64,000 bases of DNA. Source: Ensifer adhaerens. Lineage in GTDB: Bacteria > Pseudomonadota > Alphaproteobacteria > Rhizobiales > Rhizobiaceae. The notes below the pieces were generated by a model. That model was not told where the DNA came from and did not search any database. It was given only the letters and a program-made list of their open reading frames with translations. Within the stretch, counting starts at the first letter, position 1, and each line of letters opens with the position of its first letter. Below, piece after piece: positions 5,723 to 62,862 of the stretch. The position numbers were made by a program, and so were the translations under genes. The stretch covers positions 248,001 to 312,000 of the forward strand of contig NZ_JABEKT010000002.1 of NCBI RefSeq assembly GCF_013283195.1, in the 5' to 3' direction.

Positions 5723-6042
5723 TGATCCATCCTTTTGAGCAGGTCTTCAAGGTCGTCAAAACGGTTCTGCCAGAACCCGGTCATCTCTTTTGCCCAGCCG
5801 ACCAGCGGGTCAAGCGCGCCGAGTTCAGCGCTGTAATGCGTCAGCCGGCCCTCGTGCCGGTCCTTGACTAGGCCGGCGCGCTTCAGCACCCCAAGATGTT
5901 TGGAAACAGCTGGCTGCGAGATCCCGGCATGCGCCGTCAGGGCCCCGACGGTCTGGTCGCCTTCGCGGCAGAGCCGTTCAAAAATGGCCCGCCGCGTTGG
6001 GTCAGCAAGGGTCTTGAACAGGATTTCGTGTGGCAGTGGCAT
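5719..6042 (-). CDS. ArsR-family winged-helix repressor
   Basis: A 107-residue regulator. The N-terminus LADPTRRAIFERL and the recognition helix ISQPAVSKHLGVLKRAGLV are classic ArsR features. No metal-binding Cys pair (ELCVCD type) is visible; the only Cys is in RLCREG, so it probably does not sense metals by the usual alpha-3 site. It is translationally coupled to the AHSA1 gene. An imperfect 14-bp inverted repeat sits 14-48 bp upstream of its start, consistent with autorepression of the pair. Confidence 0.9.
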   Translation of the reverse strand: MPLPHEILFKTLADPTRRAIFERLCREGDQTVGALTAHAGISQPAVSKHLGVLKRAGLVKDRHEGRLTHYSAELGALDPLVGWAKEMTGFWQNRFDDLEDLLKRMDQ

Positions 6043-13625: not shown

Positions 13626-14836
13626 CGTGTCACCTGTCCGTTCTGTGCGGCCCTGGCCGCAGAAATGCCCTGCATCACGCCGCGAATTTCGGCGAGCCCC
13701 TTCAGACGGCCAATGAGCGAGTAACCGGGGTTGATCCGTTCCTTGCCGATATCGTCGGCGAGCAGATGCCCATGGTCTGGGCGAACGGGAATCTGCCAGT
13801 CGTCGCGTCCGGAAGCGTGGCGGCGCTCCTGCTCCTCAAGGAGAGCGAGGATGACGGCCGGGATATCGCTCGATCCGCCAAGATGGTCGGCCTCATGAAA
13901 CGAGCCGTCCGCTTCGCGCTGGACGTTGCGCAGATGGGCGAAATGAATGCGCGAGCCGAACTCGCGCACCATCGCGGGCAGGTCATTTTCGGCGCGGGTG
14001 CCGTAGGATCCTGTGCAGAAGGTCAGGCCGTTGGCGGGGCTGTCGGCCGCCGCCAGGATGCGGCGCGCATCATTGGCCGTGGAAACGATCCGCGGCAGGC
14101 CATAGAGCGGGAAGGCCGGATCGTCGGGGTGGATGCAGAGTCTTACCCCGATCTCTTCGGCCACCGGGACGATCTCGCGCAGGAAGTGCGCGAGGTTTTC
14201 ATGCAGGTCCTCGGCGCTGACGCCATCGTACTCCGCGAGTGCTCCGAGAAAGCCAGCGCGATCGAACTTGCGCTCCGATGCCGGCAGGCCGGCAATCAGG
14301 TTGCGTTCGATCCGTTCGATCTTTGCAGGGGTCATCGCAGCAAAGCGCGCCTGTGCCGCTTCGATCTGGGCCGGCGAATAGCTTTGCTCGACGCCCCGCC
14401 GCTTCAAGACGAAGAGATCGTAGGCGGCGAAATCGATGGCATCGAAGCGCAGCGCGTATCCACCTGTTGGCAGCGGGTGCATGAGTTCTGTGCGGGTCCA
14501 GTCGACCACCGGCATGAAGTTATAGCAGACCGTGCGAATGCCGCAGCGCGAAAGCGCCCGCATCGTGTCCTTGTACCAGCCGACGTAGCGTGCGCTGTCC
14601 GATGATTTGAGCTTGATCGAATTGTGCACCGGAATGCTCTCGACCACACTCCAGCGCAGGCCCGCCGTCTCGATCAGCGCCTTGTGCTTCAGGATCTGAT
14701 CGTCGGACCAGGGTGAGCCGTCATAGACGTGGTGGAGCGCAGTGACGATGCCCGTCGCCCCCGCCTGCCGGATATGGCTGAGCGGCACCGGGTCGTCGGG
14801 GCCATACCAGCGAAAGCACTCTTCCATCGGCCTCAT
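13622..14836 (-). CDS. uxuA: mannonate dehydratase (UxuA family), copy 1
   Basis: A 404-residue enzyme that converts D-mannonate to 2-keto-3-deoxygluconate. The ATG at 14836 has GGAG 8 bases upstream and begins [12 protein letters not shown], the standard UxuA N-terminus. Typical segments are [43 protein letters not shown], the [10 protein letters not shown] loop, IHFAHLRNV and PVRPDHGH. It is divergent from a GntR regulator and coupled to the RraA-like gene. The UxuA paralogue at 20.3 kb is shorter and diverged. Confidence 0.93.
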
Positions 14837-59623: not shown

Positions 59624-60193
59624 TCATGCTCGACGGCGCGACAGCCGGTAGACGCTCGCCGGCGGGAGATTGAGCGGTACCCAGCGCAGGAACGATGCCT
59701 CGAGGCGAAGTATTTCGAGCAGCGCTGCCGGCACAGGGCAACGCGGTCCGTAAGTGAACTGGAAGAGGCAACCGTCATCGGCAAGGTGCAGAAAGACTGC
59801 CTCAAGGATATCGCGAACCGCTTGTCTCGGCATGGAGAGCAGCGGCAGGCCGCTGATGGCGGCGCCGATCTTGCGTGTTTTCGGCAACCGCAAGTGCTGC
59901 GCATCACCCTCGATCAGCGTTGCCTCTGGAAAACGGCCCCGCAGCAACGCGGCAAAGGCCGGATTTCGTTCCACCAGAACCAGTTGGTCCTGTCGGACAC
60001 CATTTTGCAGAAGTGCGCGCGTGAAAATGCCGGTGCCTGGGCCAAGCTCCAGGACATCACCGGTGTACCGGCCGATTTCGGTGGTCATGGCTGCGGCCAA
60101 TCGCGTGCTCGAAGGTGCGATAGCGGCGACTTCCAATGGCTTTGTCAGCCATGAGCGCAGGAAGAGCAGGGTGTCCGATGCGGTATTGGTCAA
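59624..60193 (-). CDS. PmtA-like SAM-dependent methyltransferase
   Basis: A 189-residue methyltransferase. The TTG at 60193 (GGGAG 7 bases upstream) is preferred because it begins at the conserved helix LLFLRSWLTKPLEVAAIAPS and lies 57 nt from a palindrome. SAM motif I is VLELGPGTGIFTRALL. FQFTYGPRCPVPAALLE and the C-terminal LNLPPASVYRLSRR match rhizobial phospholipid N-methyltransferase-like proteins. It may methylate phosphatidylethanolamine-type lipids (inference). Confidence 0.8.
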   Translation of the reverse strand: MTNTASDTLLFLRSWLTKPLEVAAIAPSSTRLAAAMTTEIGRYTGDVLELGPGTGIFTRALLQNGVRQDQLVLVERNPAFAALLRGRFPEATLIEGDAQHLRLPKTRKIGAAISGLPLLSMPRQAVRDILEAVFLHLADDGCLFQFTYGPRCPVPAALLEILRLEASFLRWVPLNLPPASVYRLSRRRA

Positions 60194-60200
60194 GGTGTGG

Positions 60201-60220
60201 CTCCCGTTGGTGAACGGGAG
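60201..60220 (-). promoter_or_regulatory. hairpin covering the ribosome site of the methyltransferase gene
   Basis: On the minus strand CTCCCGTT pairs perfectly with AACGGGAG around loop CACC. The GGGAG used as ribosome site for the TTG at 60193 is in the second arm, so it would be masked when the hairpin forms. Confidence 0.5.
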
Positions 60221-60250
60221 CAGGTATTGCGCCTTGCAGCGCCGCAAGCA

Positions 60251-60264
60251 TTAACCCGGGTTAA
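60251..60264. promoter_or_regulatory. 14-bp palindrome TTAACC-CG-GGTTAA, candidate Crp/Fnr-like site
   Basis: A perfect palindrome with 57 nt between it and the TTG start of the methyltransferase gene, and 1 nt beyond the Crp/Fnr stop. It has the same outer 12 bases as the site at 60858-60871. Confidence 0.65.
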
Positions 60265-60265
60265 G

Positions 60266-60877
60266 TCAGGTATCCGCTTCCTCGCGAACGCGCTTGGCGA
60301 TGCGGCTGAGGCCGACCGGCGTGATGCCGAGATAGCCTGCAAGGTCCTTCTGGGGTGCGCGCAAGACCAGATCCGGTTCCTCGGCGATCAGCGACCGGTA
60401 GCGTTCCTCCGGATCGAGCGTCAGGAACTGGCGCTCGCGACGCTCCTTGCGTTCGGCAAGGATCATCAGGGCGTTGCGTAGCATCCGCGACCAGCCGAGA
60501 TCGGTGTCGACCAGCGCTTGCAGCGTCGCGAACGGAATTCTCTCCAGACGACAGGTTTCGATGGCGACCGCGGAAAAGGTGGCGCGTCCCATTGGCAGCA
60601 AGGCCGAAAGACTTGCGAAAAACCGCCCTTCGGTAGCGAAGGATTTGATCCATTCCTCGCCGTCGGCGCGAAGGTAGGTGAGCTTAACCAGGCCGGTCTC
60701 GATTATATAAATGTAGGGATGCGGCTCGTCCTGGCCGAAAATCGTCTCTCCGGGCTTCACCGGGCGAACATGAATTGCCTCGGCCAGGCGGTCCGTATTC
60801 GCAAGCGATTGCCCCGCAATACGCTCGAACAGTGAAATCGCCGCCCCGTTCGCGTGCTTAACCTCGGTTAATGCCAT
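60266..60877 (-). CDS. Crp/Fnr-family regulator
   Basis: A 203-residue regulator; the ATG at 60877 begins MALTEVKHANG, an earlier in-frame ATG at 60910 is possible. A cNMP-binding-type barrel (VKPGETIFGQDEPHPYIYII, ETCRLERIPFATLQALVD) precedes the HTH (APQKDLAGYLGITPVGLSRI). No N-terminal Cys cluster for an iron-sulfur centre is visible, so oxygen sensing as in Fnr is unlikely. It lies between a methyltransferase gene and a divergent SDR gene, both with matching palindromes. Confidence 0.92.
   Translation of the reverse strand: MALTEVKHANGAAISLFERIAGQSLANTDRLAEAIHVRPVKPGETIFGQDEPHPYIYIIETGLVKLTYLRADGEEWIKSFATEGRFFASLSALLPMGRATFSAVAIETCRLERIPFATLQALVDTDLGWSRMLRNALMILAERKERRERQFLTLDPEERYRSLIAEEPDLVLRAPQKDLAGYLGITPVGLSRIAKRVREEADT
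60858..60871. promoter_or_regulatory. 14-bp palindrome TTAACC-TC-GGTTAA, candidate Crp/Fnr-like site
   Basis: Outer arms identical to the site at 60251-60264. It lies 57 nt upstream of the SDR start codon (60929) and covers the first codons of the Crp/Fnr gene, so it may activate the SDR gene and limit the regulator's own expression. Confidence 0.65.
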
Positions 60878-60928
60878 CCGCTTCCTCTTGCTCCAGGCTC
60901 GATTGTTCAATCAACAGGAATAGATAAC

Positions 60929-61645
60929 ATGGCACGATATGTCGTCACTGGGGCAAGTTCCGGGATAGGTCTGGAAATTGCGCTGCACCTGGCCGCAAAA
61001 GGCCACAGCGTCGTTGCGCTCGGCCGCGACAGGGAGCGACTGAGAGGCCTGGCGCAGCGTGATCAAAGGATCGAGGTGCGGGTGCTGGATATCCGAGACA
61101 AGGCGGCCATTGCCGCCTTTGGTGCCGAATTGGCGGAAGCAGATGTCATCGACGGTCTCATCAACAACGCGGCCATCCAACACAATGTCAGGCTCGATGA
61201 GCCACACTACGGCATCGACCAGATCGTCGCTGAAGTCGAGACCAATCTTGTCGCCCCCATCATCCTGTCGCGGCTGCTTTTGCCGAACACGCCTGCGCGC
61301 CCGTTCGTGATCGTCAATATCGGCTCTGCCCTTGCGTGCTATCCAAAGGCGACTTCGGCAGTCTACAGCGCCACGAAGGCGGGCTTGCGCATGTTTTCGG
61401 ATGCTCTTCGGGTGCAATACGAGCAGACCTCCGTCAGAGTGGTGGATGTGGTGTTGCCGCTGGTCGAGACGCCGATGACCGCTGGGCGCGGCCGCGGCAA
61501 GATCACCGCTAAAGCGGCCGCCGCGGCAATCGTACGCGCTCTGGAGCCCGGCAGGTCGCGGGTTCATGTCGGCAAGGCAAAACTGTTGAAGCTGTTGCAA
61601 GTCATCGCTCCGCCTGTCGCTGCCGCGATCATCAGAAAGCTCTGA
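60929..61645 (+). CDS. SDR-family oxidoreductase
   Basis: A 238-residue short-chain dehydrogenase of the DltE/YdfG-like kind: nucleotide motif TGASSGIG (about 6-13), NNAA, Ser in NIGSALA and YSATK with catalytic Tyr and Lys. The C-terminal HVGKAKLLKLLQVIAPPVAA is typical of this type, some of which touch the membrane. It is divergent from the Crp/Fnr gene and has the palindrome above. Confidence 0.9.
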   Translation: MARYVVTGASSGIGLEIALHLAAKGHSVVALGRDRERLRGLAQRDQRIEVRVLDIRDKAAIAAFGAELAEADVIDGLINNAAIQHNVRLDEPHYGIDQIVAEVETNLVAPIILSRLLLPNTPARPFVIVNIGSALACYPKATSAVYSATKAGLRMFSDALRVQYEQTSVRVVDVVLPLVETPMTAGRGRGKITAKAAAAAIVRALEPGRSRVHVGKAKLLKLLQVIAPPVAAAIIRKL

Positions 61646-61936: not shown

Positions 61937-62287
61937 TTACTTGAGGTACAGGGTCAGGCTGCCGTCGGCTGCCTGTTCAGCCCCGACGATGTTGTTGAGC
62001 TCAACATTCTGGGTCTTGAGCTTGGCGACAAGATCCTTGTTGCCGTCGACCGCCTTGTGCAGGGCGGCCAGCTGGGCGGGCGTTGCCTGGTCGATCCAGG
62101 TTCTGGTCTCGCTCAACTTGTCCAAGGTGTCGATATTGACCACCGTGAAGTTGTCGCCCTTGAAGCTGTGCACCGTCTGTTCGATTTCTGCCGGCCAGTT
62201 CATGGTCGTGCTTGCCGCGTAGGAGATGCCGCCAAAGGTCATGGCGGAAAGCGCTGCGATAAGGGAGAGCTTTGCGATGCGGTTCAT
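61937..62287 (-). CDS. small exported hypothetical protein
   Basis: A 116-residue protein. AAGGAG lies 7 bases before the ATG at 62287. The signal peptide MNRIAKLSLIAALSAMTFGG ends near SYAA. The mature part (FTVVNIDTLDKLSETRTWID, ATPAQLAALHKAVDGNKDL, LTLYLK) resembles short periplasmic proteins of unknown function in rhizobia. Nothing can be said about its role. Confidence 0.75.
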   Translation of the reverse strand: MNRIAKLSLIAALSAMTFGGISYAASTTMNWPAEIEQTVHSFKGDNFTVVNIDTLDKLSETRTWIDQATPAQLAALHKAVDGNKDLVAKLKTQNVELNNIVGAEQAADGSLTLYLK

Positions 62288-62862
62288 GATCATTCTCCTT
62301 GGTTGTGCAGCATCCCGCATGTGCGTTAGGCCGAGGTGAACCCCTGCGAGCCGTCGTCAAACGGGTCTCATTGGTCGCCACAGGTCGTTTGCGGGCGTTT
62401 TCGCCCACACTGAAGATGCCGGGTTGTTTCGAATGTCGGGACAGTTAGCCCCCCAGCAATCAGTGCTGGATTGTGCCGTTCCGATGACTGAAAAATGGTA
62501 GCCAATCGTGACATTTTGGTGGCGCAAGTCACTGGAATATAATTACAAATTCTTCATGCGCCGATCGTTGGCCGACAAGGCGAAGTAATGACGGATCACG
62601 ACGCCCATCATCGATGGAACGCTTTGCCCATTCAGCTCGCGTGGTGGGCGCCGACGACCTGCCGTCATTCGGACCGGAGCGGCCTGAGATGCCGGCGAGT
62701 TCGTCGGCGGCCGCCGGGCTCTCCGCCGCAAGACCGCTCCGCAACGGTGACACGGCCCAAGAACTGAACTTTCGTGACGTGGTGCCGTTGGCAAAGCCGG
62801 TTACGATCGCCAGGCCACCCCGGGCCGGTTGGGTCTTGTGAATGCCCGCCGGAGGTGGACGG
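62288..62862. other. gene-poor region with one orphan promoter-like site
   Basis: About 575 bases with no supportable gene. An AT-richer patch holds TTGGTG (62516-62521) and TATAAT (62538-62543) with a 16-base spacer, a good sigma-70 form pointing right. No gene on that strand follows within 1 kb except minC, so it could start a small RNA or be inert. Confidence 0.4.

Follow-up and report, generated by a model that had tools for sequence, protein, structure and literature searches.

A Crp/Fnr-type regulator encoded between two copies of the palindrome TTAACC-NN-GGTTAA very probably recognises both of them. In the reading that we prefer, to which we assign a probability of about 0.83, it would act as a class II activator of a divergent SDR gene and a downstream methyltransferase gene, repress its own gene from the second site and control a small local regulon. 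The locus lies in a stretch of 64,000 nucleotides of Ensifer adhaerens DNA (contig NZ_JABEKT010000002.1), referred to here as the window.

The locus and its two palindromic sites

The regulator gene occupies 60266..60877 on the minus strand, from an ATG at 60877 to a TGA at 60266-60268, and encodes a protein of 203 aa with a match to Pfam cNMP_binding (E 3.2e-15), a helix-turn-helix apparently without a wing and the recognition helix TPVGLSRI. Downstream on the same strand is the gene for a PmtA/OlsG-like SAM methyltransferase (59624..60193). Its TTG start at 60193 is supported because an ATG aligns at about the same place in three relatives (L009, L105 and L106). The protein stays below the curated equivalog cutoffs of NCBIfam, scoring 96 bits for PmtA (cutoff 250) and 87 for OlsG (cutoff 350). 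On the plus strand, an SDR family oxidoreductase of 238 aa (60929..61645; Pfam adh_short, E 6.6e-35) is divergently encoded from an ATG at 60929.

The first predicted operator, site 1 (TTAACCCGGGTTAA, 60251..60264, no strand assigned), starts one base past the regulator stop codon and lies between it and the methyltransferase gene. Site 2 (TTAACCTCGGTTAA, 60858..60871, likewise predicted and without strand) covers regulator codons 3-7 upstream of the SDR gene. The original prediction had placed two 14-mers with all twelve outer bases in common at these positions, and both the coordinates and the match were verified. Site 1 is exact in 11 loci of the Ensifer group or near it and in two plasmid copies of strain NT-25. 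A genome scan, which had been proposed as a check, located TTAACCNNGGTTAA at two exact places in the 7.07 Mb genome, both at this locus, and a reversed control pattern at one. For two sites placed randomly in 7.07 Mb, a second site within 607 bp of the first has p of about 1.7e-4. One-mismatch sites were considered as further targets in the same genome and discarded: at up to one mismatch, the motif and the reversed control each occur at four places, two of those of the motif being additional to the exact pair. A copy with two mismatches (GTAACCGGGGTTGA) is found at 13721-13734 of the window. Virus contigs scanned for an extended form of the motif yielded 39 stretches; none matched the regulator, the SDR or the methyltransferase in tblastn, and these were set aside as chance background.

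Other features were observed near the locus. Just before the methyltransferase start, at 60200-60221, lies an inverted repeat, GCTCCCGTT-CACC-AACGGGAGC. Several relatives carry a shorter stem, CCGTT/AACGG, at that start; it is absent from L020, L007 and L023, and in L009 it reads CCGTC/GACGG, a two-sided change. A small protein of 127 aa encoded at 61937-62320 has no match in Pfam or NCBIfam at E 0.001.

Promoter geometry

Each site was predicted to lie 57 nt from the start codon that it faces, as the mark of a fixed activator-to-promoter geometry. The distance is exact for both starts, TTG 60193 and ATG 60929, and a fixed spacing does exist; the constant, however, is the 22 nt between a site and a putative -10 hexamer. 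Of 11 loci, 10 have site 1 at 57 nt from the methyltransferase start and one has it at 56 nt; in the two plasmid copies, the gap is 53 and 54 nt. For site 2 and the SDR start, the gap is 57 or 58 nt in the seven measured Ensifer loci and 51 to 87 nt across the 27 measurable of 29 loci. Equal spacing of 57 nt is conserved within the genus and not beyond it, and as a functional constant it was rejected, since the SDR gap varies over that range whereas the distance to the -10 hexamer is steady.

The 22-nt spacing was tested on the SDR-side DNA of 50 loci having a site with 0-1 mismatch, reduced to 28 by dropping 22 rows that were short or exceeded 80% identity over 60 nt; L008, L011 and L053 are among the 28 without an SDR call. 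The pattern TANNNT stands exactly 22 nt past the site in 12 of the 28 non-redundant loci and NANNNT in 21, and the maxima at the other 49 offsets are 4 and 6, respectively. A count of 12 was not attained at any offset in 5000 mononucleotide shuffles. Initially, the spacing had been spotted by eye on part of the loci tested; in the 15 loci fetched after it had been noted, TANNNT occurs at +22 in 10 and NANNNT in 12. The methyltransferase side stood outside this test; its 11 loci include several close relatives, and 10 have [AG]ATA[CG]C at +22. In the window, the predicted -10 hexamers are a weak CAGGCT for the SDR gene (60894..60899, plus strand, placed 22 nt past site 2 by position statistics; a poor hexamer in Ensifer) and AATACC for the methyltransferase gene (60223..60228, minus strand, 22 nt past site 1). 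With the -10 hexamer numbered as usual from -12 to -7, the site extends from -48 to -35, and its centre therefore falls at -41.5. In class II promoters of FNR and CRP, the site is centred at -41.5. The placement of both sites fits the position of a class II activator, given the -10 elements predicted here.

A predicted operator inside the regulator reading frame

Site 2 lies within the regulator coding sequence (codons 3-7: ATG GCA TTA ACC GAG GTT AAG), and in the window the frame opens 6 nt ahead of it. Beyond the Ensifer group, 20 loci were measured that have a site with 0-1 mismatch (L053, which lies outside the subfamily, was excluded), and in 17 of them the site precedes the regulator start by 2-5 nt. 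The exceptions are L043, L085 and L011, with gaps of 21, 58 and 26 nt; in L011, a GTG 2 nt past the site offers an alternative start. Six window genes have 198 Leu codons between them, and codon 3 of the regulator is the sole TTA. The stretch that contains it shows no change in any of 8 aligned relatives, and residues 1-8 of the protein have low confidence in the structure model. The DNA rather than the peptide therefore seems to be constrained, and conservation at site 2 appears to act at that level. In L007, at about position 6000, a one-base deletion was observed in the centre of site 2, and the regulator frame opens differently.

As site 2 covers the regulator's own first codons, autorepression through it is likely. 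Two plasmids of the arsenite-oxidising bacterium NT-25 (L105 and L106) carry regulators with 62.7% and 59.6% identity and the same helix, TPVGLSRI. In both, the methyltransferase gene follows the regulator, and site 1 is exact, overlaps the regulator stop codon and has AATATC 22 nt further on; the SDR gene and site 2 are missing. Each site therefore tracks the gene that it faces. The regulator start of these two copies has no operator, so that autoregulation of this kind would not be universal. After the regulator and methyltransferase genes, the plasmids carry (2Fe-2S) and xanthine-dehydrogenase-type genes and no SDR gene.

These arrangements bear on a second explanation, in which the regulator binds both sites and represses all three genes. 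In most relatives, the site lies across the regulator start or just ahead of it, where a repressor of that gene would typically bind. On the SDR and methyltransferase sides, however, the site covers the place of the -35 element, with the -10 hexamer 22 nt further on, and together with the poor -10 hexamers of Ensifer this is a class II layout; spacing of such exactness is not needed by a repressor. We consider repression of all three genes improbable, though worth keeping in mind, and prefer activation of the two outer genes with autorepression of the regulator.

Occurrence across genomes

The motif was scanned in 101 genomes, 16 of the same genus and 85 others, with G092 counted by its first site and its second left out. 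At least one exact site is present in 8 of the 16 congeners, and these are the same 8 that carry the regulator gene; six of them have two exact sites, and two have one exact and one single-mismatch site. Outside the genus, 8 of 85 genomes carry the motif, three of them (G025, G027 and G097) at a regulator-SDR pair.

To avoid selection on the motif, genomes were also counted by protein sequence. Searches with the single protein at E 1e-15 yielded 5 of 397 genomes in the order and 8 of 16 in the genus, and class and phylum searches at E 1e-15, later cut at 1e-40, gave 3 of 385 and 6 of 398. Profile A1, in which 6 of 16 rows (L016, L018, L021, L023, L025 and L027) derived from the motif search, detected 13 of 147 genomes of one family outside the class at E 1e-40, as well as 1 of 20 and 1 of 120 in the families of G315 and G782, both genomes having been counted already. 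These sets overlap, the source genome itself occurring in several, and comprise 30 different genomes. A site with 0-1 mismatch near the regulator start was found in 28 of the 30, including 8 of 8 in the genus, 5 of 5 in the order and 13 of 13 in the family outside the class. The two without such a site are G741, whose recognition helix reads TPQA, and G1108, with helix TPVS and three mismatches. Of these genomes, 29 have an SDR relative encoded divergently to the regulator; in G010 (L008, L019, L073), only SDR residues 1-73 align beside the regulator, at 34%, and the gene looks broken or replaced. With this distribution, the proposal that the Crp/Fnr protein encoded between the sites recognises them very probably holds.

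Below the 1e-40 cut, three loci from the class search (L037-L039) have no 0-1 mismatch site, and the 24 loci looked at among the weaker phylum matches (L044-L067) have no exact site, with one mismatch in L053 and L054. A scan of named genomes found both sites in L006 and L009, site 1 as the only intact site in L007 and one exact site in L011, and no site in L010, L012 or the remote L013. The regulators of L010 and L012 are about 50% identical and have a divergent SDR gene; a site with 0-1 mismatch is absent from both. L011 is a Massilia homologue with an exact site and no SDR gene; CACACT stands at +22, and NCBIfam gave no match for the divergent ORF of 341 aa that lies nearest.

Boxes that contain TTAA exist for other regulators, and another DNA-binding protein might in principle use the palindromes, the position of the regulator being incidental. 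Presence of the motif, however, equals presence of the gene in 16 of 16 congeners, and the motif accompanies the regulator into a family outside the class, so that this explanation seems very improbable. Chance palindromes, or conservation through close kinship alone, can be dismissed as scarcely credible: a 14-mer is short, and for five of the 101 genomes, all outside the genus, the 3 kb fetched with the motif contain no regulator and no SDR, but the sole exact copies in the genome sit 607 bp apart and sites with 0-1 mismatch persist down to 27-44% protein identity.

The regulator protein and its recognition helix

The AlphaFold model of the regulator shows a confident Crp-type fold (pLDDT 89.4), with MtbCRP, GlxR and FNR as its best PDB matches. 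The cNMP-binding-type domain (Pfam PF00027) was identified in the regulator and in 34 of 34 homologues. The Pfam model HTH_Crp_2 reaches 21.8 against a cutoff of 27, with 12 of the 34 homologues matching at E 0.001, and no NCBIfam model reaches its cutoff for the regulator. In the structure model, the chain stops directly past the last helix without further strands; the wing therefore appears to be missing. The closest sequence relative of known structure, the cyclic-nucleotide-binding regulatory protein of PDB 3dn7 (E 5.1e-25 with the family profile), likewise ends shortly past the recognition helix but keeps the Glu (TPEYLS).

With E. coli CRP, the regulator shares the fold, the cNMP-type domain and the equivalent of Arg185, which is kept in 34 of 34 homologues. 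It differs at the positions of the CRP cAMP contacts E72, R82, T127 and S128, where it has S89, A99, K144 and E145, and at the DNA contacts R180 and E181, where it has P and V. The CRP site, TGTGA-N6-TCACA, differs as well. The FNR-type set of four cysteines for a [4Fe-4S] cluster was not found in the regulator, which has one (C109). Judging from these residues, classical sensing of cAMP or through an iron-sulphur cluster looks unlikely.

The FNR-type site is given as TTGAT-N4-ATCAA in a published account (PMC2908626). The present motif, which is geometrically TTAAC-N4-GTTAA, has the FNR spacing; its half-site, TTAAC(C), differs from both TTGAT and TGTGA, in agreement with the original view that it is neither the FNR nor the CRP form. 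The regulator shares with the FNR/FixK/DNR group the fold, a 14-bp site with N4 spacing, class II geometry and the equivalents of Ser212 and Arg213. It departs from that group in its half-site, its single cysteine, the apparent lack of a wing and an apparently local regulon, and in having Val in place of Glu209. This residue, V188, corresponds to Glu181 of CRP and Glu209 of FNR and is Val in 31 of the 34 homologues; its replacement fits the change from TTGAT to TTAAC with loss of the G. The NnrR group of alphaproteobacteria is described in the same source as having a changed Glu209 position with a changed target site (PMC2908626); it is a separate regulator group, and an alteration at this position together with an altered site is common to both.

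The homologues with a TPVS helix at L010, L012 and L042 have TTATCTTTTGTAAA or TTATCTTAAGTTAA as possible altered operators, which we note as a lead, and TACAGT, TAAAGT and GATCAT stand 22 nt past the altered sites of L010, L012 and L042. The altered 14-mers of L010 and L012 were read by eye and are not among the best palindromes listed. A changed recognition code in the TPVS homologues is possible. Among the literature matches listed for TTAACC/GGTTAA with Crp or Fnr, no title concerned such a motif. The operator and subfamily look new inside a known superfamily and with a known promoter geometry; one of the eight alphaproteobacterial sub-families for which PMC2908626 gives logos could have this motif.

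Partner genes

A wider comparison of neighbourhoods covered 15 loci outside the Ensifer group (L088-L102). A relative of a Pfam-confirmed VTT (DedA-type) membrane protein was found by BLAST in 13 of the 15, L101 having another VTT protein by Pfam, and a DUF2141 relative in 7; Pfam was used to check four of the VTT and two of the DUF2141 proteins. Both genes lie downstream of the SDR gene wherever the order was read. In the Ensifer group, no VTT or DUF2141 gene was seen next to the SDR gene, and the PmtA/OlsG-like methyltransferase with its own predicted operator copy is present instead. In Shinella, a related methyltransferase adjoins a VTT gene. A function in membrane lipids may be guessed from VTT/DedA neighbours and from a similarity to PmtA and OlsG that stays below their cutoffs. 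Neighbouring cyo/SURF1 genes were considered as general partners and rejected, since cyo occurs only in L003-L005 among 25 other loci.

Proposed mechanism and significance

We propose that the regulator, with its Crp/Fnr fold and presumably as a dimer, binds TTAACC-NN-GGTTAA. On site 2, centred at -41.5 of the SDR promoter, it would activate the SDR gene in the class II manner, and on site 1 it would likewise activate the methyltransferase promoter. Binding at site 2, over its own first codons, would also lower transcription of the regulator. The local regulon would comprise the SDR and methyltransferase genes in Ensifer; in several other lineages, DUF2141 and VTT genes would join the SDR gene.

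A broader reading has, in our estimate, about an even chance. The regulator would represent a distinct Crp/Fnr branch that lacks the wing, uses a DNA code of its own and responds to some signal other than cAMP or an iron-sulphur cluster. It would control a portable module for membrane-lipid remodelling, and in the Ensifer group the operator would have been absorbed into its reading frame. In the code belonging to that reading, helix T-P-V-G/A would go with TTAACC half-sites and T-P-V-S with altered sites, the even odds applying to all of these elements jointly.

These findings provide an operator, a promoter geometry and likely targets for a branch of a heavily studied regulator family. The natural change from Glu to Val in the recognition helix, paired with a base change, makes a rule of protein-DNA recognition directly testable. 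Furthermore, the locus offers a way to study what SDR-DUF2141-VTT gene groups and PmtA-like methyltransferases do.
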